NCBI RefSeq assembly: GCF_028368855.1
Contig: NZ_JAQNCY010000007.1
Coordinates: forward strand, 1 to 64,000
Direction of reading: 5' to 3'
Source of the DNA: Leisingera sp. SS27
GTDB taxonomy: Bacteria > Pseudomonadota > Alphaproteobacteria > Rhodobacterales > Rhodobacteraceae
Length of the DNA: 64,000 nt
The notes below the pieces were generated by a model. The model saw only the letters and a list, made by a program, of their open reading frames with translations. It did not search any database and had not been told where the DNA came from. Positions 49,515-62,916 of this stretch are shown here, piece after piece. The translations under genes and the position numbers were made by a program. Numbering within the stretch: position 1 is the first letter of the stretch; the number at the start of each line of letters is the position of its first letter.

Positions 49515-51391
49515 ATGAAACGGAGTTCCCCGTTGATAGAAACGTTGCCCCTGGCGGTCAAACCTTCGGAGCGCGAGACACTTCCCTCTTTCTTTTCGCG
49601 CATGGCTGCGATCAATGGTACCGACGCCACCGGATTTGCCCTTGATCTTGTCGTTAGTTTAAAGCGGATCCTGAAACAGGAGCAGGAAGCAATTGACATT
49701 TTTTCCACCCGATCCGGTTTGGTGACCGATCAGCTGTCAACCATGCTGTTATGGACAGGTGAGCGTATCGGGGGCGTACGCATGAAATTTCGCGGGGAAG
49801 TTTTTGTTTCCCGCGCCGTACGCAACCCTGTCATCCGCGGCTGCCCTCATTGCCTGCGCGAGGCGGCAGAAAACAAGCCTCTCCGCTGAGGCACATGGCC
49901 ATGGCGGGAGACTGGCTGTGCCGCGGTGTTGATGTGTGCTTGCGGCACCGCCATCCTCTGATGCCACTTTGGGAAAGCTCGCGGCCTGTAAATCGTGATG
50001 ATGCTGGTGCCAGATTGGCTGAGATCCTGCCAGACCTTCTGGCGGGCAATTTTGACAGCGATCTGATTGAGCCGTTCGCCTATGACGCCTGGCTTGATCG
50101 GCGCCTGTCGCAAGGTGAGGACAAAACGTGGCTGGCAACTCAGCCTTTGATTGCCGCCATGACCTGCTGTGCGTTGCTTGGCAAGGAACTCCTTCGTGCT
50201 CAGGAACTTGAAGCCGACGACCGTGCTGCGAAGGCCAAAGGCTTTGATGCCGCATCGAGAGGGCCTGAGGCAATCACGTGTGCGCTTGATCGCGTTTTGC
50301 AGGCGGGGGATGGGGGGTACTTTGGATCAAAACAGGCATTGCCGATGCTGATCGAGGCCCTTGGTCGCCTCTATCGCAGCGATGATAGCTTTGATGGGTT
50401 TCGCGATATTGTACGTCGGCATTTGTTGAGGATCTGGCCGGTCGAGGCGGGAGATGAGGTTCTCGGTCATACCGTGCCCGAACGACGTATCCATTCTCTC
50501 GCCTCGGCAAACAAGGAAACCGGGGTCGGCAGGTCGGTCCTCAACGGCTTCCTGACTGAGGCTGGAGCGTTCCCTCCTGATGACACGCGCGCTGATGCTC
50601 GCAAAACCTTCGACGCAAAGAAATACAAACCCCTTCTGGAGGAGGTCCCGACTTTGGTCGGGCCGACTGCGATGCGCAAAGCTATGGGCGCAACGTTAGT
50701 AGAACTCAAATCACTGGAGGCTGACGGCGTGCTGACGCCCAGAACGAAAGTTGCGACGATCAAGTCTCCCTGGCGCGTGTCTGGCGGGCTGGTCCTGCTC
50801 GAGGAGTTGGAGCGAACGGCAATTTTGCTTGAGGCGGGTACACCAGGATGTGAAATGATCCAGCATGTTCACAAGCGAGTGGGTCTTTCTGTCGGCCAGG
50901 TTATCGCTGCGATCAGGGGCGGCAGATTGAGGGTCGGCAAGCGCGCTGAAACGTTTGGGTATCACGGACTCGTCGTCAACGTTGCCGAAGTTGATCAGTC
51001 GGAGTAACTTCGCCCCCGCGAGCAGAAAATGGCGGCCATGGAAGGGGAGATGAACGCAGCTGCCTTTGCCCGCTCAATCGGAGTGCGGGAGAAAGGGGCG
51101 CTCCAAGCGTTGATCGAAGGTGGCTATATGAACCGCACCGGGTTTGCCGGAGGCTGATTTCAGTCAGTTACGCGGCAATGTCCTTAGTTTCCAGAGCGGC
51201 GTAGAAATTGGCCTCTGCTTCTGCCGGCGGAATGTTCCCGATAGGCTCAAGCAGACGGCGGTTGTTGAACCAGTCCACCCATTCGAGTGTTGCGTATTCC
51301 ACTGCCTCGAAGTTGCGCCAAGGGCCGCAGCGGTGAATGACCTCGGCTTTGAACAATCCGTTGATCGTCTCAGCCAGGGCGTTCTGCGCAT

Positions 51392-51416
51392 TCAAATGAT
51401 CCCCCGGATCTTTTGA
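51392..51416. repeat. Palindrome family B, copy 1 (in IS3 OrfB)
   Basis: tcaaatgatcc, ccc, ggatcttttga: 11-bp arms with one mismatch. Flanks share cgcgcagcgg/cgcgtagcg-like sequence with copy 2. Sits between the codons for GDSY and NALAETI. Confidence 0.75.
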
Positions 51417-51687
51417 TCCGCTGCGCGGACCTACTTGAACTCGTAGCTGTCTCCGACGCTGCCGACAGAGGGCTCGATACCGGCTTCGCCCAACCGTTCT
51501 GTGTATTTGAAAGACAGGTATTGGCTGCCGCGGTCGGAGTGGTGAACAAGCCCCATCGCCTTTGTCGGCCGCCGCTCGTGAACAGCTTGCTCCAGAGCAT
51601 CGAGAACAAACCCGGCATGCGCCGAGGTGCTGACACGCCAACCAACGATCTTGCGGGCATAGGCATCGATAAGCGAGCCATTGAAGG

Positions 51688-51712
51688 CGCCATTGGTTCG
51701 AGCCCAATGGCG
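51688..51712. repeat. Palindrome family A, copy 1 (in IS3 OrfB)
   Basis: cgccattgg, ttcgagc, ccaatggcg: perfect 9-bp arms. Preceded by gagccattg like the other copies. Adds about 13-14 codons in frame between FAYVA and IDAYARK. Confidence 0.78.
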
Positions 51713-51839
51713 AGCGGCGACATAGGCGAACCCTATCCAAGTGGCGACATAGGTGAAATCGCTGACCCAGAGCATGTTGGGCGCGGGCACTCGGAACTGC
51801 CGGTTCACCTTGTCCAGCGGGTATGGGGCCTTCTTGTCA

Positions 51840-52620
<781 letters not shown>

Positions 52621-53093: not shown

Positions 53094-53170
53094 TGGCGAT
53101 CCCTGAAGGACTCGAACCCTCAACCTGCTGATTAGAAGTCAGCTGCTCTATCCAGTTGAGCTAAGGGACC
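53094..53170 (-). tRNA. tRNA-Arg (anticodon UCU)
   Basis: 77 nt including CCA. The acceptor stem GGTCCCT/AGGGATC, D-arm, anticodon stem GCTGA/TCAGC with loop CTTCTAA (anticodon TCT) and T-arm with GGTTCGAGTCC all fold. The tRNA 3' end points toward the island with the IS3 and tniQ remnants, the usual side for integration. Confidence 0.95.
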
Positions 53171-53815: not shown

Positions 53816-54583
53816 TCAGCGGTAGAGGCCGGCCCAGGCAGCGGCCTGGGTACGGGCGGCCTCTGGCGGCAAGGCCAGCAGCAGCAGACCCCCGCCGTCG
53901 GAGGCGGCAAGAATGTGCAGCTGCGGCGTGACCGGCAGCAGCAGGCAGTCCGGTTTCGGCACCGGCATCCGGGCGGAGGCAGGACGGGCGGCCTTGGAAG
54001 CCAGCGCCCGGCGCACAGCATCCAGCTGGGTCAGCAGCGTCTCCGGCCCGTCGCCTTGCATCTCCTTGGTGCTGCGCGGGCAAAACAACCAGGCCGTTGC
54101 CTGCGGCAGGGCCCGGGCGCGGAAATGGTCCAGACGGCTGCCGCTTGCCGCTGCGAGGGCGGCGGCAAGGGTTCCGGCAGAGCAGGTTCCGGCACCTTGG
54201 GGTGCGGCGCAGGGGCGCCGGCGGAAGCTGATTTTTCCTTCCTTGCCGCCCGCCTGCAGCAGTTGCAAGCGGGCGGCAAAGAGCTGGGCTGCGGTCTCCG
54301 GATCTTCAGCGGCGGAGGAGGGATCCGCGCTGTCCTGGAGGGTGAAGCCTGCAATCCGGCGCTGCGCCACGGTGAGGGTGGCTGCGGCGCGGCCGCTGAT
54401 GCACAGGGTGATTTCGCGCGGCAACATAGTTTCGCGTATTTCGCGCAGCACGGCGTCGGTCAGGCTGTCAGCGGTGCCGGAAAGCGCTGCGCGGGCGGGC
54501 TCGGCCAGCCTGATCAGCGCTTGATGCAGGTCTGAGGCTGTACTGGTGCCATCTTGAGTGGTCTGCTGCGCAGGATTGGCCAT
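53816..54583 (-). CDS. Unknown protein at 3' end of kinase/GTPase array
   Basis: 255 residues, Ala/Leu-rich, no membrane segment or signal peptide. ATG 54583 overlaps the stop of the gene before it (a GTG at 54586 is possible too). Predicted pieces: a helical N-terminal part (DLHQALIRLAEPARAALSGT), then a beta-rich middle with a Cys (ITLCISGRAAATLTVAQRRI), and a C-terminal DCLLLPVTPQLHILAASDGG. The last part faintly recalls roadblock-type folds, but I cannot assign a family. Translational coupling ties it to the GTPase array. Confidence 0.55.
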   Translation of the reverse strand: MANPAQQTTQDGTSTASDLHQALIRLAEPARAALSGTADSLTDAVLREIRETMLPREITLCISGRAAATLTVAQRRIAGFTLQDSADPSSAAEDPETAAQLFAARLQLLQAGGKEGKISFRRRPCAAPQGAGTCSAGTLAAALAAASGSRLDHFRARALPQATAWLFCPRSTKEMQGDGPETLLTQLDAVRRALASKAARPASARMPVPKPDCLLLPVTPQLHILAASDGGGLLLLALPPEAARTQAAAWAGLYR

Positions 54584-54960
54584 CACGCGCCCCCGTCCTG
54601 ATGGGCCAGCAGCTGCCGGGCCGGTGCGGCCAGCCGGGCGGCGGCATCGGCATCGTCGCAGATACAGAGCACTGCATCGCCGGAGCCGTCACCGGCGCGC
54701 AGGAACAGCCGCACCTCGCCCGGGGCGAGCAGCAGCACGTCATCCGCGGGCGCCGCTGCCGCGCCACCTGCCTGGGCCGCCGCGTCCAGCGCCAAAAAGC
54801 CGCGGCGGGCCTGCTGGCAGAGATCGTCAAGGTATTCCTGCGGGTGGCCGTCGCCGCTGCTGCTGCGCAGCACGATGCTGGCACTTAGATCGCCAAAGGC
54901 CGCCAGGCGGCAGCCGGGCTCAACCTGGCGCAGGACATCGAGCTGGCGGGCCAGGGTCAT
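54583..54960 (-). CDS. Small protein, possibly roadblock/LC7-like, in kinase/GTPase array
   Basis: 125 residues from ATG 54960 with a GGAGG site. The order helix (DDLCQQARRGFLALDAAAQ), strands (DDVLLLAPGEVRLFLRAGDG, AVLCICDDADAAARL) and closing helix (AAPARQLLAH) would fit a roadblock/LC7 fold. Such proteins act as partners or activators of small GTPases (for example MglB for MglA), which would make sense 60 bases after a GTPase gene. The fold assignment is a guess from pattern and size. Confidence 0.45.
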   Translation of the reverse strand: MTLARQLDVLRQVEPGCRLAAFGDLSASIVLRSSSGDGHPQEYLDDLCQQARRGFLALDAAAQAGGAAAAPADDVLLLAPGEVRLFLRAGDGSGDAVLCICDDADAAARLAAPARQLLAHQDGGA

Positions 54961-55020
54961 GGGCAGCCTCCGCGGCAGTCCGGATGATTGCAAGGCGCAT
55001 ATGCTGGCAGCATGACGGGC

Positions 55021-55989
55021 TCAGTTTCCTTCAGAAGGGGTTTCGGGACGCTGGCTGCGCCGGGACGGGGCCGAGACCCGGCGCGGCATCACCCGGGGAC
55101 CACCGCTGGCACCGGCCGAAGCAGCCTGCAGTTGCGGCTGTAGTTCAGGCTGCAGGCTGCTGTCGCGCATCCCCCCAATGTCCAGCACCTCTGCCCGCAA
55201 CTGCTGCTCGGGCTGCAGCGCCCTTGCCGCGGCGGCAGGCTGGACCGGCGGGCGGGGGCGGTCCGGCTGTGTCCAGTTCAAGAGCAGGTCGACCAGGTAT
55301 TCGATGAATCCATCGGCGCCGCTGGTCTTCCAGGCCTCCATGTCCTCGCCCGCGGCCAGAGCCTGGCTGAGCGACAGCGGGAACACCGCATTGAAGCCAT
55401 CGCCGGTTTCCTTCTGCACCCGGCGCAGTACGCGGTCGCGGTCGCGCGGAGTCTTGAGCTTGTCGAAATGGGTGATCAGCAGGGTGCTGGGGGCGTCGAG
55501 CCGGGCAGAGATTTCCTCCCAGGCGGCGGCCTCTGACTGGCGCCAGGCCTGGGTGGCATGGGTGCACCAGATCACGCTGTCCACCTCCGGCAGCAGGTTC
55601 TGCCAGACGCTGGCGGGCATATTGGGATCGGAGATCCCGGGCATGTCAATGAGGTCACAGAGCTCCAGGGCCTCGGCGGGCAGGGTCAGGCGGATCAGTG
55701 CGGTGGTTTCCAGCGGCACATCGTCCAGATCCTCCAGCCGCACCGGGGTCTCTCTGCCATCGGTGCCGGTCAGGCTGGCGCCCTCGGCCCCGTGAGAGAT
55801 CCAGACCGGCGGCAGGCGGGTGGCGGTGACGCGGGTGGGCAGCGGCTGCTGGCCCACCAGCAGATTGGTGAGAGTGCTTTTGCCTGCGCTGAATTCGCCC
55901 ATCAGTGCCAGCCGCGGCTTGCGGGCTGGGGCGGCCGCCGGAGGGAAGGCGGCGGAAGCCGGGGCGTGCTGGGCCGTTTGGTCGCTCAT
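55021..55989 (-). CDS. GTPase of the dynamin/Era-like P-loop type
   Basis: 322 residues. G1 GEFSAGKST at 31-39, G3 DMPG near 115 (LCDLIDMPGISD), and a G4-like THFDKL near 172. The G domain spans about 25-240; the rest is a disordered Gln/Pro/Arg-rich tail (QPEQQLRAEV to the end, SAPSRRSQRPETPSEGN). The GEFSAGKST P-loop is typical for bacterial dynamin-like and YfjP/Era-like GTPases. It overlaps the large dynamin-like gene by ATGA, so the two products probably work as a pair, like tandem bacterial dynamins. Confidence 0.8.
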   Translation of the reverse strand: MSDQTAQHAPASAAFPPAAAPARKPRLALMGEFSAGKSTLTNLLVGQQPLPTRVTATRLPPVWISHGAEGASLTGTDGRETPVRLEDLDDVPLETTALIRLTLPAEALELCDLIDMPGISDPNMPASVWQNLLPEVDSVIWCTHATQAWRQSEAAAWEEISARLDAPSTLLITHFDKLKTPRDRDRVLRRVQKETGDGFNAVFPLSLSQALAAGEDMEAWKTSGADGFIEYLVDLLLNWTQPDRPRPPVQPAAAARALQPEQQLRAEVLDIGGMRDSSLQPELQPQLQAASAGASGGPRVMPRRVSAPSRRSQRPETPSEGN

Positions 55990-58046
55990 GCTGTGAAACT
56001 CCTGAGTGTTTCCAATGCAGTATTGGTTTCAGTTTGGCGCTGGCCGGCCTCGTCGCCGGTGAATAGTGCCTGCATGTCGCCGCCGCCGCGGCGGCAAGCG
56101 GAAATCTCCAGCAGGATGTCGCGCTGGTCGTCGAAGAAGCCCTGCAGGCGGGCAAGGATGGCGGCGCGGGCGTCGGCTGTCTGCACCGTCTTGAGCTGGG
56201 TCATGAAATCCTCTGTTTCGCCGGCGATCAGCTTGCGGAACTGTTTGGCAAAGGCCTTGTAGCCGCGGGTACGGCGCCACCACGAGGCCCACCAGCTGTC
56301 GTTGAAATCCAGCGCGATGGACTGTGCCAGGGCCACTGGAGAGGCGGGCTGTGGAACCTCGGGCACGGCCAGCTGGATGCCCTCAACTGCCGGGCCGAAG
56401 CCGTCATAAAGCAGTTCTGCCACGTCCCTGACTGCAGCCTCGTACCGGTCTTGCGCGGCGGATTGCAGGCGGCTGGTCATCACCGAATAGGCAGAGCGCA
56501 GCAGCATCCGCAGCCCGGCCGGGTCGTATTCCCAATGGCAGTCCTCGCCCCATTTCTCCAGATGGTCGATCAGCGCGTGGGTGGCGCGGTCGGTGAAGGT
56601 GGCATGGGCCCGGTCGGCGCGCTCGCGGAAGGAATCGAGCACCTGGTCCGCCTCGGCCTCCAGCGCCGCCATTTGGGTCTTGCAGATGTTCTCGAAAGCG
56701 GTGCGCACATCGTGCATATTTGCGCCGCCGGTGCTGCCCTCGCCCTGAACCATAACCGCATTGGCGGCCTGCTGGCCGGTGGCGGCGGTGGTGGCGGTGG
56801 CGGCAATGCGCTGCAACAGCGGGATGCCAAGGTCGGCGACGATCCGTTCGCTGACGGCGCGGTTCAGGGCCGGAAGGCCAGACAGTTCCCACACCATGTT
56901 CTGCGGTGTCGCCTTTGCGTGGGAGGCGTTGACTGACGCCTCGGCCCAATTCAGGAGCGCGGCGGAGCTGGTCGGATCCATATCCTCCATTCCGCCGGTC
57001 AGCACCTTGTTGGCCCAGTAGGCGCTGCCAAAGATGATCTCCGCTTCTTGCGGCCCATGATGGGTTTCCAGTGTCTGGCGGATACTGGTCTCGATCTCGG
57101 CGACCTGTTTGGCCGGGTCGGCCAGCTCGTCGATGCGGTTTACGAAGATCACCACCTCGCGCGATTTGAGGTTGGAGATCATCCGGATCAGCCCCATGTC
57201 TACCGATGTCAGCGCCTGGCCAGCCGACAAAACCACAACGCAAATGCGGCTGTCGCGGATCGCTTGGATGGTGATCTGCTCGCGCATCATGAATGTGTCG
57301 TTGACGCCCGGCGTGTCGCGCAGGCAGAGCCGGTGCGGCACCGAGCGGCAATTCAGATACAGGTCCGCGGCGCGGGTGATATCGGCGAAGCGGCCCTGTT
57401 CGTCCACCGTGCCCAGATCTTCGTCATCGAAATCATCGCCGAGGCAGATGTAGCGTTCGATCAGGTTCTTGTCGAAATAGCCGTAATCGTGCTTCTGCCC
57501 CATCAGGAGTTCGAACTTGCGGCCCAGCCGCTGGCGGGAGCGGTCGCGCATCTCCTCGATCTGTGTCCGGATCTTCTGCAGCTCGCTGTCAGCACCGGCG
57601 CGGCCTGCCATTTCACCGATGCGGCCGCCTTTGGTAGTCAGCCGGTCCCATTCCTCTTCGGTCATGAACTGGAAGCAGGCCTTGTTCTCGGTGCGGGTCT
57701 CGCCCGGTTCCAGGTGCAAGGAGGTGACAACCGAGGTCCAGGGGTTCACATCCGAAGGCAGCAAATCGGCCCAGCCTGCCATCGCATTGACCAGGGAGGT
57801 TTTGCCGGACTTCACCTGCCCCAGCAGGGTGACGCTGGGTTCAAATGTGCCAAGCTCCTCCTGCAGGCGGGTGAGGCTGCGCTGTACCCGCTCGCCTGAA
57901 ACGCCGTGCAGGGTGGCCAGTGCACCCTCGAGCCGCCGCGCCTTGCGGGCAAAGTCCGCCAGCGGTTCCAGCCCGGCGCTGAGGTTGGTGGGGCGGGCGG
58001 AGGCGCGGATGTCGGTGGCGCTCTCGATCTGGTGTTCCATGTTCAT
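55986..58046 (-). CDS. Large dynamin-like GTPase
   Basis: 686 residues. G1 GQVKSGKTS at about 76-84, switch threonines in NPWTSVVTSLHLEPG, G3 LRDTPGVND and G4 VNRIDEL are intact. The remaining ~350 residues are mainly helical with long Ala/Glu/Gln-rich stretches (MAALEAEADQVLDSFRERAD), as in the stalk of bacterial dynamin-like proteins; no clear membrane paddle is visible. RTRGYKAFAKQFRKLIAGE gives a basic patch that might touch membranes. Start at ATG 58046 or 58040. Central gene of the kinase/FHA/PP2C array. Confidence 0.82.
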   Translation of the reverse strand: MNMEHQIESATDIRASARPTNLSAGLEPLADFARKARRLEGALATLHGVSGERVQRSLTRLQEELGTFEPSVTLLGQVKSGKTSLVNAMAGWADLLPSDVNPWTSVVTSLHLEPGETRTENKACFQFMTEEEWDRLTTKGGRIGEMAGRAGADSELQKIRTQIEEMRDRSRQRLGRKFELLMGQKHDYGYFDKNLIERYICLGDDFDDEDLGTVDEQGRFADITRAADLYLNCRSVPHRLCLRDTPGVNDTFMMREQITIQAIRDSRICVVVLSAGQALTSVDMGLIRMISNLKSREVVIFVNRIDELADPAKQVAEIETSIRQTLETHHGPQEAEIIFGSAYWANKVLTGGMEDMDPTSSAALLNWAEASVNASHAKATPQNMVWELSGLPALNRAVSERIVADLGIPLLQRIAATATTAATGQQAANAVMVQGEGSTGGANMHDVRTAFENICKTQMAALEAEADQVLDSFRERADRAHATFTDRATHALIDHLEKWGEDCHWEYDPAGLRMLLRSAYSVMTSRLQSAAQDRYEAAVRDVAELLYDGFGPAVEGIQLAVPEVPQPASPVALAQSIALDFNDSWWASWWRRTRGYKAFAKQFRKLIAGETEDFMTQLKTVQTADARAAILARLQGFFDDQRDILLEISACRRGGGDMQALFTGDEAGQRQTETNTALETLRSFTA

Positions 58047-58120
58047 GGCAGGGCCTGTTTGATATCTGCTTCGGCGTTTTGTTCTGCTGTCCGGCTTGCG
58101 GGTCTTGGCGTGGCGCGCGT

Positions 58121-59334
58121 CTATCCGGGCGGCTCTTCCATCAGTTCCTTTTTCAGCTGAATCAGCAGGGTTACCGCATCGACGGCTGCGTCCTCATCCT
58201 GTTCCAGCTGGCACAGCATCAGCATCTCCTCGCCGTCCTGAGCGGCCTCACGCGCGGCTTCCACCGCTGCACTGGCGGGCATTTCATCAAGCGACTGCGA
58301 CAGGTTGCGGATCATCTCCATGCATTGCGCCAGTACCGGGGCGGCCTGAGGGCCGCCAGCGGCTTCGGCCTCCGCCAGCATCGCCTCGGCGCCGGTTTGC
58401 AGCTGGTCCAGCGCCGCCGCCAGGCTGGCAGCCTGAGGGGCAGCGGCAATTGCCGCTGCTGGTGCTATTGCGGCGGAAGAGACCGGAACTGCAGGGGAGG
58501 GGGTCTCAGGCGGCAGGCTGCCGCCGAATTGGCGGATCAGCAGTTCCGCCTGATCGACGTCGGAGGCGCGGCCCAGATCGACCTGGCGCTGAACGTCTCC
58601 GGCCAGCTGCTTGCCGCCGCTGGAGCGCCACAATCCATCTTGCGGCGCATCGGCGGCACGGGCGGTCAGACCCTGGATCGCGGCAACCGGGTAAACGCCC
58701 AGAAACTCCTCCGCCGCTATGGGTTCCAGTGTTTCGATCAGCGCTGGCAAAGTGCCGCGCATCACTAGGCGGTCGGCCATGGTGAGCACGAGGAAGCTGT
58801 GATCCTTGGTGCTGTCGGGCACCGCGGTCCAGAGCGCCTGTTCACCGGCAGGGAACTCCTGGCTGCACCACAGGATGATGTCGGCGCTGGCGGCGGCCTG
58901 CTGCAGCATCTCCTGCTGGGTGTCCTGCGGCCCTGCCAGCGGCAACTCGCGGTAGCTGTGCCAGCGCAGGCGCGGGTCGGGCAGCATCTGGCGCACCCGG
59001 CGGGCGTCCTGCGGCAGCTCCATCTGCGCCAGCAGTCCGGGGATTTGCAGACGCTCGCCCGCGGCAGTCTCGACCTGCGCCATTTCCTCGGCGCCGTGGC
59101 AGACATCAACCAGCAGGCCGCTGCCGTTGCGGCCGATGACGACACTGCCCAGCAGCATGTCGATGAGGGCGGACTTGCCGCTGCCGGGACTGCCGGCAAC
59201 CGCCACATGCACCGGCTGGCGCAGGCGCTGCAGCAGCTGGCTGCCCCAGCCTGAAACCTCGGACGGGAGGCGCCCGGTGCTGAGGGTCCGTTCCAGCTGG
59301 CCTGCCAGCGGGCTTATGTCTCTCAGGGGAAGGC

Positions 59335-59338
<4 letters not shown>
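58121..59338 (-). CDS. P-loop NTPase (dynamin/GTPase-like) of the kinase array
   Basis: 405 residues from GTG 59338, which overlaps the PP2C stop (GTGA) and gives a protein starting SLPLRDISPLAGQLE. Walker A GSPGSGKS at 49-56; a Walker-B/G3-like ADIILWCSQEFPAGEQ region and LTMADRL where G4 would be, so the GTP-specificity motif is degenerate. The N-terminal domain reaches about residue 245; then come an Ala/Pro-rich linker and a helical C-terminal part (EAAREAAQDGEEMLMLCQLE). Third nucleotide-binding protein in the same operon. Confidence 0.75.
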
Positions 59339-60295
<957 letters not shown>

Positions 60296-60324
<29 letters not shown>

Positions 60325-61588
60325 CCTGCTGCGGCTGGTCCCAGCCGAAAGAAGCACCGCAGAGCGGCACGAACCGCAGCGTGGTTTCGCCGATGCGGAT
60401 CTCGTCGCCCGCGGTCAGCTCTTCGGTGCTGAGTACCGGCCGGCCGTTGCGGCGCACCAGGTTCGCCTTACCGCCGTGGCCGATGTAAAACGCCTTCTGC
60501 TCCGGATCATAGGCGATGGCTGCGTGGTTGTCGCGCGAGATGCTGTTGTCTCCAAAGTCGAGCCGCACGGTCTGATCCTCGCCGCGTCCGATCACGGTGA
60601 CACCGTTAAACAGGGTAAAGGCAGCACCGCGGCCCGGGCCCTGCACCACTGCCAGCCAGCCGACCGGGAACTGGGTGTAGCCGGGCGCGGTGGTTTCACC
60701 GCCGCGTGAGAACGGATCGCTGCCGGGCGCCTGTGCCGGGCTGAAGCCGAGAAGGCGGGTTTTGACGCGGCCTGCGCGGCTGGCACCGCGTCCCATTGAA
60801 GGCGCGGGCACGTCGATGGGTGCCACGGCAACGGGTGTGCTCTGCTGCGGCTGAGGAGCCGGAGCCGCCAACTGCGTTGCCGGATCAGGCTGGGCCTCAG
60901 CCCGCGGCGCGGGTTCGGGCCAAGGATCAGACCGCAGGTCAGGCTGTGGTTCCGGCTGTTCGTCAGCCTCAGCCTCAGGCTCCATCTGCGGTGCGGCGGC
61001 AGGCTTGCGGTGGAAGACCCGGTAGCTTTCAGGCTGTTCCGCGGCGGCCTCTGGCTGCTGCAGGCGGCTGAAGTCAGGCTCTTGCGTCAGCACTTCCTGC
61101 GTGTCCTCGTCTTCCCCGGCTGCATAGTCGTCAGCGGCAAAGGCTTCCGGCTCTGCGGCCTCTGCCGCGAAGGGGTCCTCGTCTTCCGCATATTCCGGGG
61201 CTGCCGCTGTTTGCTCTGGTTCTGCGGCGGCCTCCTGCGTCTGTTCGCGGGCAAAGAAAGCGGCGATGGCGTCCTCCTCCGGCGCTTCGCTGCCGGGATT
61301 GTCCAGATAGGTCTCTGCGCTGTTTTCTTCTTCTGGTGCATCCTCCTCCAGGAAATCCTCCGGCAGAACGCAGCCGTCATCAGCGGCGCCCGGTGCCGGA
61401 TCCAGCTGGAAGCCGCGGTCCAGGCTGAAGGGCGCACCCTCGGTGCGGGCCTCTGTTTCGGGCGCGGCGGCGAGGCTGTCAAACGGGTCCCGTGCCGGCG
61501 GCTGCACCGGTTCGGCGGCGGGGGCGGCGGCAGTTTCTGCCCTCACCCGCTCCCGTTTTTCGCCGATGATATCCTTGATGAACTTCAT
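60296..61588 (-). CDS. FHA-domain protein with long acidic linker
   Basis: 430 residues. It starts with a short basic helix (MKFIKDIIGEKRERVRAE), then about 250 residues rich in Glu, Ala and Pro (many repeats of EAEA/EPEQ type), and ends with an FHA domain at about 310-410: VIGRGEDQTVRLDFGDNSIS, with the phospho-Thr-binding SRDNHA, and NLVRRNGRPVLST. FHA domains bind phospho-Thr peptides, so it is probably the docking partner of the kinase encoded 11 bases upstream. The acidic linker may be phosphorylated or bind basic partners. Confidence 0.87.
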
Positions 61589-61599
61589 TGCGGTTTCCT

Positions 61600-62916
61600 T
61601 CAGTTCTTAACGGTTGCCGGGGTGCCGTTCTGGAACCCGAAAATTTTGCGCAGGCGGCCTGCGAATGTTGGTTTGTCTGCACTGGCGCCGCTGCCCGCAG
61701 CAGCCACAGGGGGCTGTCCGGCGGCGGGGGCTTTTCTGCTGCGCCTGTTGCGGGAGTCCTCTTCCGCCAGCCAGGCTTCCAGGTCGCTGACCGGCTCGCC
61801 GAACAGGTTGACCATCTGGCGGGGTTCCTGCGGCGGCCGTTCGGGTGCAGCTTCCGCCCGGACGATGCGCGGCTGGCCCGGGGTCAGGCTGGAATTGGTC
61901 GAGGCGACCAGATCGGCGATGGTTGCGTCCAGTTCACCGTCATCAACAGGTTCCAATGCTGTCTCTGCCATGGCATCGGCGGGCATCATCACTTCGGTTT
62001 CATACTCCGCCAGCATCTCGGCCCAGGCCCGGGCTGACTGAAACCGTTCGGCGGGCGGCACCGACATTGCCTGATCAACAGTGGCCAGAAGCGCAGGGTC
62101 AGCCGCCCAGGGGCCGCCCAGCAGCGGCGGGCAGGGGTCCGGGTTGCCGGCCATCACCGCGTTCAGCCGCTGCTGGCTGCCCGGAGGCGGTGCGCCGGTG
62201 ATCAGGTAATAGAAGGTGGCGCCAAGCGCGTAGATGTCGCAGGCCGGGCGCTGCGGCAGATCGGGCTTGTAAAGCTCATGCGCCGAGTAGCCGTCCTTGA
62301 CCGCCAGCAGCATCGGCAGCGCCGTGTCGTCCTTGGGGGTGCTTCCGGCCGCCGCGCCGAAGTCGATCAGGGTCAAGGTGCCGTCCTGGCCGAGCAGCAG
62401 GTTGTCGGGCGAGATGTCGCGGTGCAGGATGCCCAGCCCGTGCAGGCAGCCAAGCGCCTCCAGCGCCTGGGTCAGGATCTGCCGCAGCACCGGTGCGGTG
62501 AGGCGCTCGGGCTGGTCCTCGCGCACGGTCAGCAGGTCCAGCCCGTCGATGAACTCCATCGCGATATAAGCGGTCTGGTTTTCCTTGAAGACCTGATGCA
62601 CGCCGACGATGCCGGGGTGTTCGGCGCGGGCCAGCAGATGCGCCTCGCGCAGGAAGGCGCGCAGCACGTTGCGGCAGGACTTGGCGTGTTCCGCCGCCGC
62701 CGGCTCCACCTCCGGGCCGTTGCGGCGGCAAATCCCTGCCGGAAAGCATTCCTTGATCACCACCCGCCGTTCCAGGCTGTCGCGAGCCAGATAGGTGATG
62801 CCGAAACCGCCGCTGATCAGCGGACGCTCAATCTGGTACTGGCCCTGCAACAGCTTGAAACCGCAGGGCAGTTCGCAGGTTTGTGCCGGATCGGCGGAAG
62901 TCGGGTCGTGCGGCAC
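61600..62916 (-). CDS. Hanks-type Ser/Thr protein kinase
   Basis: 438 residues from GTG 62916, with GGAGG eleven bases upstream. Kinase domain about 25-300: Gly loop SGGFGITYLARD (35-46), Lys 55 in VVIKECFP, alpha-C Glu near 91, HRDISPDN with catalytic Asp 167 and DFG at 185-187. SAHELY stands where APE is usual. The ~140-residue tail is Pro/Ala/Glu-rich and ends with a basic helix (AGRLRKIFGFQ); no membrane segment, so it is cytosolic. Domain layout resembles kinases of type VI secretion and PpkA-like groups, but no secretion genes are nearby. First gene of an eight-gene array. Confidence 0.88.
   Translation of the reverse strand: MPHDPTSADPAQTCELPCGFKLLQGQYQIERPLISGGFGITYLARDSLERRVVIKECFPAGICRRNGPEVEPAAAEHAKSCRNVLRAFLREAHLLARAEHPGIVGVHQVFKENQTAYIAMEFIDGLDLLTVREDQPERLTAPVLRQILTQALEALGCLHGLGILHRDISPDNLLLGQDGTLTLIDFGAAAGSTPKDDTALPMLLAVKDGYSAHELYKPDLPQRPACDIYALGATFYYLITGAPPPGSQQRLNAVMAGNPDPCPPLLGGPWAADPALLATVDQAMSVPPAERFQSARAWAEMLAEYETEVMMPADAMAETALEPVDDGELDATIADLVASTNSSLTPGQPRIVRAEAAPERPPQEPRQMVNLFGEPVSDLEAWLAEEDSRNRRSRKAPAAGQPPVAAAGSGASADKPTFAGRLRKIFGFQNGTPATVKN

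Follow-up and report, generated by a model that had tools for sequence, protein, structure and literature searches.

The 64,000-nucleotide stretch of DNA analysed here (hereafter the window; Leisingera sp. SS27, contig NZ_JAQNCY010000007.1, positions 1 to 64,000) contains an operon of eight genes, A to H, in which a complete set for writing, reading and erasing phosphothreonine (i.e. a Ser/Thr kinase, an FHA protein and a PP2C phosphatase) is stably linked to a translation-coupled pair of dynamin-type GTPases. The same operon encodes a likely pseudo-GTPase, a protein with a predicted Roadblock/LC7 fold and a probable roadblock/longin-like protein. What we observe is the gene set and its order, their conservation, the status of key residues, a fold model of G, the homology of D and F, and variation of the phospho-signalling part among relatives. 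Our best reading, to which we give about an even chance, is that the eight gene products form a dynamin-pair machine under phosphorylation control, which would act at the inner membrane. Taken singly, there are precedents for dynamin pairs, for kinase/FHA/PP2C sets and for roadblock-GTPase modules, and aimed searches of the open-licence literature revealed no paper that appears to describe a dynamin pair, a kinase/FHA/PP2C set and a roadblock protein together.

Gene order, conservation and distribution

All eight open reading frames (ORFs) lie on the reverse strand, with overlaps or short gaps, as an earlier reading of the DNA alone (hereafter the initial annotation) had placed them. A and B are 11 nt apart, B and C overlap by 17 nt, C and D overlap by 4 nt, and D and E are 74 nt apart; in the downstream half, E and F overlap by 4 nt, F and G are 60 nt apart, and G and H overlap by 1 nt. 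For C, G and H, the ORF start was set to the RefSeq gene length in a close plasmid copy. None of the eight proteins matches an NCBIfam model at its cut-off, and the Pfam scan gave only sub-cut-off P-loop matches for D and nothing over the cut-off for G and H.

The initial annotation had asked whether these genes stay together or are adjacent by chance. A scan of genome contigs with E yielded 265 relatives from the candidate stretches, and the best 80 loci, all titled as belonging to the Rhodobacteraceae/Rhodobacterales group, were kept and compared with one profile per gene. The order A-B-C-D-E-F-G-H on a single strand is conserved in 66 of the 80 loci, which is more than chance adjacency. Of the remaining 14, contig ends truncate 12, D is split into two ORFs in L072, and G was not detected in L037. 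A 4-nt overlap is the commonest spacing at both C-D and E-F. Evolutionary distances of genes A to G correlate with r of 0.78–0.94 (55 loci), and none of 200 permutations reached the value for any pair; because strain kinship contributes, this indicates joint inheritance and not interaction. By E identity, the loci split into a window type (≥54%) and a sister type (≤51%).

E is present in 36 of 149 genomes of an even sample of the family. A strong match to the FHA gene occurs in 28 of the 149, and 27 of these 28 also contain E (6.8 expected; p = 7e-21, a value that ignores kinship), which bears out the proposed linkage of the phospho-Thr set to the dynamin-type pair. The FHA gene occurs without E in G146, and an FHA match at 1.1e-16 in G011, which has no E, was dropped from this test. 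The association extends beyond mere linkage, because in G003 the FHA gene is separated from E by 3.1 Mb of contig (∼0.46 Mb if circular). The SS27 genome contains a second, divergent copy of the operon on contig 10 (E identity 46%), and several Leisingera strains carry the operon on a plasmid: a plasmid collection contains 18 records with a match to E (12 Leisingera, 5 Ruegeria and 1 Rhodobacter), 11 of them at ≥80% identity (e.g. L146, NZ_CP041163, 32.8 kb). In wider samples, relatives of F at 1e-10 number 2 of 289 (class) and 8 of 349 (phylum) and relatives of E at 1e-30 number 8 of 349, all in the same family, with few candidates scored per genome and looser relatives not sought.

The GTPases and the roadblock proteins

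E (positions 55986–58046) is a large dynamin-like GTPase of 686 residues and F (55021–55989) a small dynamin-type GTPase of 322 residues. Both match Dynamin_N over the Pfam cut-off (3e-14 and 5.1e-10, respectively), and thus two dynamin-type GTPases are adjacent, as in bacterial dynamin-like pairs. The G1, G3 and G4 residues are intact in all 80 relatives of E, and the G1 and G3 residues in all 77 relatives of F. Among solved structures, E is closest to the bacterial dynamin-like protein of Nostoc (2j68) and to chain 5owv_A (7.7e-08); the nearest to F is chain 5owv_C (3e-17), with an alignment confined to the G-domain part (residues 63–273 of 614). The likeness to Cj-DLP1/Cj-DLP2 of Campylobacter jejuni covers both the match of E to 5owv_A and of F to 5owv_C and the arrangement, since the excerpted account of that pair describes neighbouring genes for two dynamin-type GTPases within a single operon (PMC6104087). 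By contrast, the same excerpt mentions no kinase, FHA protein, phosphatase, pseudo-GTPase or roadblock protein for the C. jejuni operon (PMC6104087), and F is stalkless at only 322 residues, so the E-F pair is unequal.

The initial annotation had counted three P-loop/dynamin-like NTPases, which holds for E and F, but D (58121–59338) is a relative of F and not a kind of its own. Profile comparison with hhalign relates D to F with a probability of 99.7 (E-value 1.1e-26). Among 77 relatives of D, the P-loop Lys is kept in all, the G3 Gly in none, and the G3 Asp is changed to Glu in 72. Judged from these residues, D is likely a pseudo-GTPase, i.e. a degenerate relative of F with a GTPase fold by homology and a lost hydrolysis motif. 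In Pfam, the matches of F and D are to Dynamin_N and Era-type domains, with no Ras-type match within the E-value limit. A Zeta toxin identity for D was rejected (20.3 bits against a cut-off of 22.3), its relationship being with F instead. RefSeq names the D homologue in four plasmid stretches as hypothetical, zeta toxin family or dynamin family (the last in a Ruegeria stretch); the name 'zeta toxin family protein' in L147 (10691–11926, NZ_CP083557) looks like a misnaming caused by the P-loop.

The two small proteins that the initial annotation left without a name are also called hypothetical by RefSeq in the four plasmid stretches, yet one of them is a roadblock protein. G (54583–54960, 125 residues) has a Roadblock/LC7 fold in its predicted structure (alpha-beta-beta-alpha-beta-beta-beta-alpha); the assignment covers the fold and not the Pfam family, as the Pfam scan gave no PF03259 match. 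Comparison of the G profile with PDB sequences gave chance matches only and was discarded as a source of identity. H (53816–54583) is a putative roadblock/longin-like protein with a weak match to MON1-CCZ1. Some relatives encode another putative roadblock type (RB), which is located beside F or fused to it. Profile comparison found no link between G and H or between G and the RB type, and the RB type matched nothing in PDB up to an E-value of 1. Because proteins of L104 and L107 and both proteins of L109 went into the RB profile, L107 and L109 match it by construction.

Roadblock proteins beside GTPases and signalling proteins are a feature shared with MglA/MglB and the actinobacterial conservons, which combine a Ras-like GTPase with a histidine kinase, in contrast to the dynamin-type GTPases and Hanks-type kinase here (PMC4316618). 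The Rag GTPases with Ragulator and the tri-longin guanine-nucleotide exchange factors are likewise GTPases governed by roadblock and longin proteins, and some relatives of the operon carry a G domain and a roadblock domain in one chain. The GTPase class is different, however, the match of H to MON1-CCZ1 is weak, and the parallel is an analogy of parts only.

The phospho-signalling genes and their variation

The identities proposed earlier for the first three genes agree with Pfam matches over the cut-off: A (61600–62916, GTG start) is a Hanks-type Ser/Thr kinase (Pkinase, 2.5e-28), B (60296–61588) an FHA protein (FHA, 1.7e-07) and C (59335–60312) a PP2C phosphatase (PP2C_2, 3e-12). The catalytic Lys and the HRD Asp are kept in all 75 relatives of A, and the DGMGGH and GDSP motifs in all 78 relatives of C. 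B consists of a long acidic/proline-rich N-terminal region and a C-terminal FHA domain, to which the nearest solved chains are GarA/Rv1827 (6.6e-06 to 6e-04). Its KTRLLGF motif (60744–60763, reverse strand), kept in 66 of 69 relatives, contains a candidate phospho-Thr whose role we propose by comparison. A docking motif common to other proteins was rejected, as the corresponding DNA pattern is found only in the two FHA genes of the SS27 genome (reversed control 0). The resemblance to GarA/OdhI and PknG has limits: GarA and OdhI regulate metabolic enzymes without a dynamin or roadblock protein, and the phosphorylation of B is only a candidate event.

Kinase A has no predicted membrane segment (maximum KD-19 value 1.19), and KD-19 exceeds 1.8 in 4 of the 75 kinases of the relative set. 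Seven longer sister-type kinases, selected for length (L081, L101, L103, L110, L120, L148 and L149), contain a hydrophobic segment past the kinase domain and a long tail, the end of which we take to be PDZ-like. Between its FHA and kinase genes, L149 encodes a LysM protein (2.7e-07) as well as a substrate-binding-like protein; L106 and L148 have a substrate-binding-like gene after PP2C, with SBP_bac_3 matches below the cut-off. An analogy is offered by PknG, the GarA/OdhI kinase, which is linked to a periplasmic binding protein. The kinase input would probably be a cell-envelope signal, because the sister-locus kinases carry a membrane segment and an outside tail.

We then compared every place of E in the 149-genome sample, grouped by contig and profile-scored, which gave 43 clusters in 36 genomes (L103 and L104, from other samples, were excluded, and L110 was merged with L083). 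E and F occur together on the same strand in 42 of the 43 clusters, E being split into two ORFs in L137 and L139; the other cluster, L143 (G059), contains three weakly matching dynamin-like ORFs (20–27 bits) and none of the other genes, and the count would be 43 of 43 if these weak matches were accepted. A roadblock gene of the G or RB type was detected in 36 clusters (contig ends truncate L117 and L125) and H in 29. The whole kinase-FHA-PP2C set is present in 26 (L128, L134 and L137 are truncated). In four clusters (L105, L108, L109 and L140), a single reading frame spans F and a roadblock domain. In L105 (3815–12191), one ORF comprises the GTPase, a DSP-type phosphatase domain in its middle and the roadblock domain, while L136 (11607–16336) and L141 (5768–12397) contain a separate DSP-type phosphatase gene, an ABC-like ATPase gene, G and H. 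In this variant (L105, L136 and L141), the DSP-type phosphatase and ABC-like ATPase replace the kinase-FHA-PP2C set. From these gaps and variants, E-F-roadblock is the wider unit, with a phospho-signalling part that varies. The initial annotation had recognized the gene set but neither this occurrence of E-F-roadblock without the kinase set nor the pseudo-GTPase nature of D.

The kinase, FHA protein and PP2C phosphatase have their counterparts in the threonine phosphorylation pathway (PpkA/Fha/PppA) of type VI secretion systems (T6SSs), and they might switch a T6SS encoded elsewhere. Consistent with this, VipB and E overlap in 13 of the 149 genomes (8.5 expected; p = 0.037, kinship ignored), and VipB occurs in 23 of 38 searched window-type genomes compared with 35 of 149 in the family sample and 0 of 7 sister-type genomes (kinship ignored in both comparisons). 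The VipB search was given 46 of the 80 loci, of which 45 were searched (L045 was left out). However, the operon contains no T6SS gene, and 22 of the 45 searched operon genomes lack VipB. In each of the 13 sampled genomes that have both VipB and E, the two are on different contigs or separated by at least 49 kb. In SS27, the T6SS stretch of contig 7 encodes a kinase (3.7e-23 against profile A) and a PP2C (4.2e-25 against profile C) of its own, and the stretch on contig 28 gave no match to A, B or C. The two contig-7 genes (L153, 16516–19484) lie within the same 40 kb as VipB, and SS27 probably has a second, T6SS-linked phospho-switch. The initial annotation had allowed that homologues might always accompany T6SSs and do their job; these absences and distances weaken that possibility, although the slight excess of co-occurrence persists.

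Left of the operon, the window has a G+C content of 0.46–0.58 (18000–53170), compared with 0.64–0.70 within it. The low-G+C stretch terminates near a tRNA-Arg(tct) gene (53094–53170), and the ORFs at 51168–52620, judged by eye, are presumably pieces of an IS3-type transposase. This stretch, next to the operon, may represent an island that integrated at the tRNA gene. Elsewhere, the flanks of 17–18 of the 80 loci (L019–L038 and other Roseovarius-group loci) contain a response regulator and a protein that we take to resemble a LuxI-type acyl-homoserine-lactone synthase.

Proposed mechanism, rival explanations and implications

In the proposed mechanism, E and F would be the active pair, much like the DLP1/DLP2 tether of C. 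jejuni, and D could be a non-hydrolysing partner or competitor of F. G, with H, may serve as a platform and regulator for the F and D GTPases. A would phosphorylate B (perhaps at the conserved KTRLLGF Thr, in a GarA-like manner) or the GTPase tails; B would read phospho-Thr and so permit or block E-F assembly; and C would reset the phosphorylation. We infer all physical contacts, the direction of control, the action on membranes and the biological output.

Several observations weigh against this mechanism. F lacks the helical stalk of known dynamin-like proteins and the pair may not be a classical one, as a helical neck and trunk in both members is not found here; hydropathy reveals no clear transmembrane segment in E or F. 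The assignment of H as roadblock/longin-like is weakly supported, and the RB label relies on one member's sub-cut-off Pfam match (E-value 0.0058), position and a sequence pattern that we presume to be that of roadblock proteins. Among uncut clusters, a roadblock gene was not detected in five (L100, L102, L138, L142 and L143), and the kinase-FHA-PP2C set is absent from the fetched stretch of 14.

The strongest rival is a GTPase signalling switch without membrane remodelling, in which F and D would act in a Rag-like or MglA-like manner on the roadblock proteins, E would be a scaffold only and the phospho-set would feed in. The roadblock partner, the one-frame union of F and roadblock domain in 4 of 43 clusters, the stalkless F, and a D that retains its P-loop without G3 are all as such a switch would have them. 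E, however, is full-length and dynamin-like, with every GTPase motif kept in 80 of 80 relatives and membrane-acting dynamins as its nearest solved relatives, and F and D are dynamin/Era-type and not Ras-like. We consider this switch rather unlikely, and both it and the dynamin-pair machine are graded as cautiously as they are because of the five uncut clusters without a roadblock gene.

An anti-phage or other conflict system, with the dynamins acting on membranes after infection, is improbable. In PADLOC, the kinase has matches to mad6 (2.7e-44) and to PD-T4-6 (1e-43), E has one to LeoA (1.1e-11) and D a weak one to mad8 (9e-04); moreover, the operon is patchily distributed in the family (36 of 149) and plasmid-borne in some strains. 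Nevertheless, PADLOC matched none of B, C, G and H, the kinase matches reflect a broad kinase group, and the genes keep a stable order and diverge together. LeoABC resembles the operon in its dynamin-type proteins, but the remaining operon genes match no counterpart, and membership in PD-T4-6, MADS or LeoABC was rejected, as PADLOC found nothing of these gene sets beyond a generic kinase or dynamin domain. Phage defence, which the initial annotation had suggested, is therefore unsupported by these kinase-model and weak LeoA matches (the flanks were not scanned for defence genes). Control of a T6SS encoded elsewhere is the least probable explanation, disfavoured by the absence or distance of VipB and by the separate kinase and PP2C near the T6SS of SS27, with a mild co-occurrence remaining.

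To our knowledge, how bacterial dynamins are switched on and off is largely open. Here, in culturable marine bacteria, a dynamin pair is accompanied in fixed order by a phospho-set, a likely pseudo-GTPase and a roadblock protein, which makes this question testable down to the Thr, GTPase and partner involved. We regard the operon as a variant of bacterial dynamin-pair systems, and the chance that it forms a separate class is fair. More tentatively, at below an even chance, it could represent a new class of bacterial machine that unites dynamin-type, not Ras-like, GTPases with roadblock/longin-like regulators in parallel to Rag/Ragulator and the tri-longin complexes, and in which exchangeable phospho-signalling front ends (Ser/Thr kinase-FHA-PP2C or DSP-type phosphatase) would couple envelope sensing to membrane remodelling. 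The one-frame GTPase-roadblock proteins of four relatives suggest that roadblock regulation may extend from Ras-like to dynamin-type GTPases. Rhodobacteraceae with this operon may control membrane remodelling by phosphorylation.
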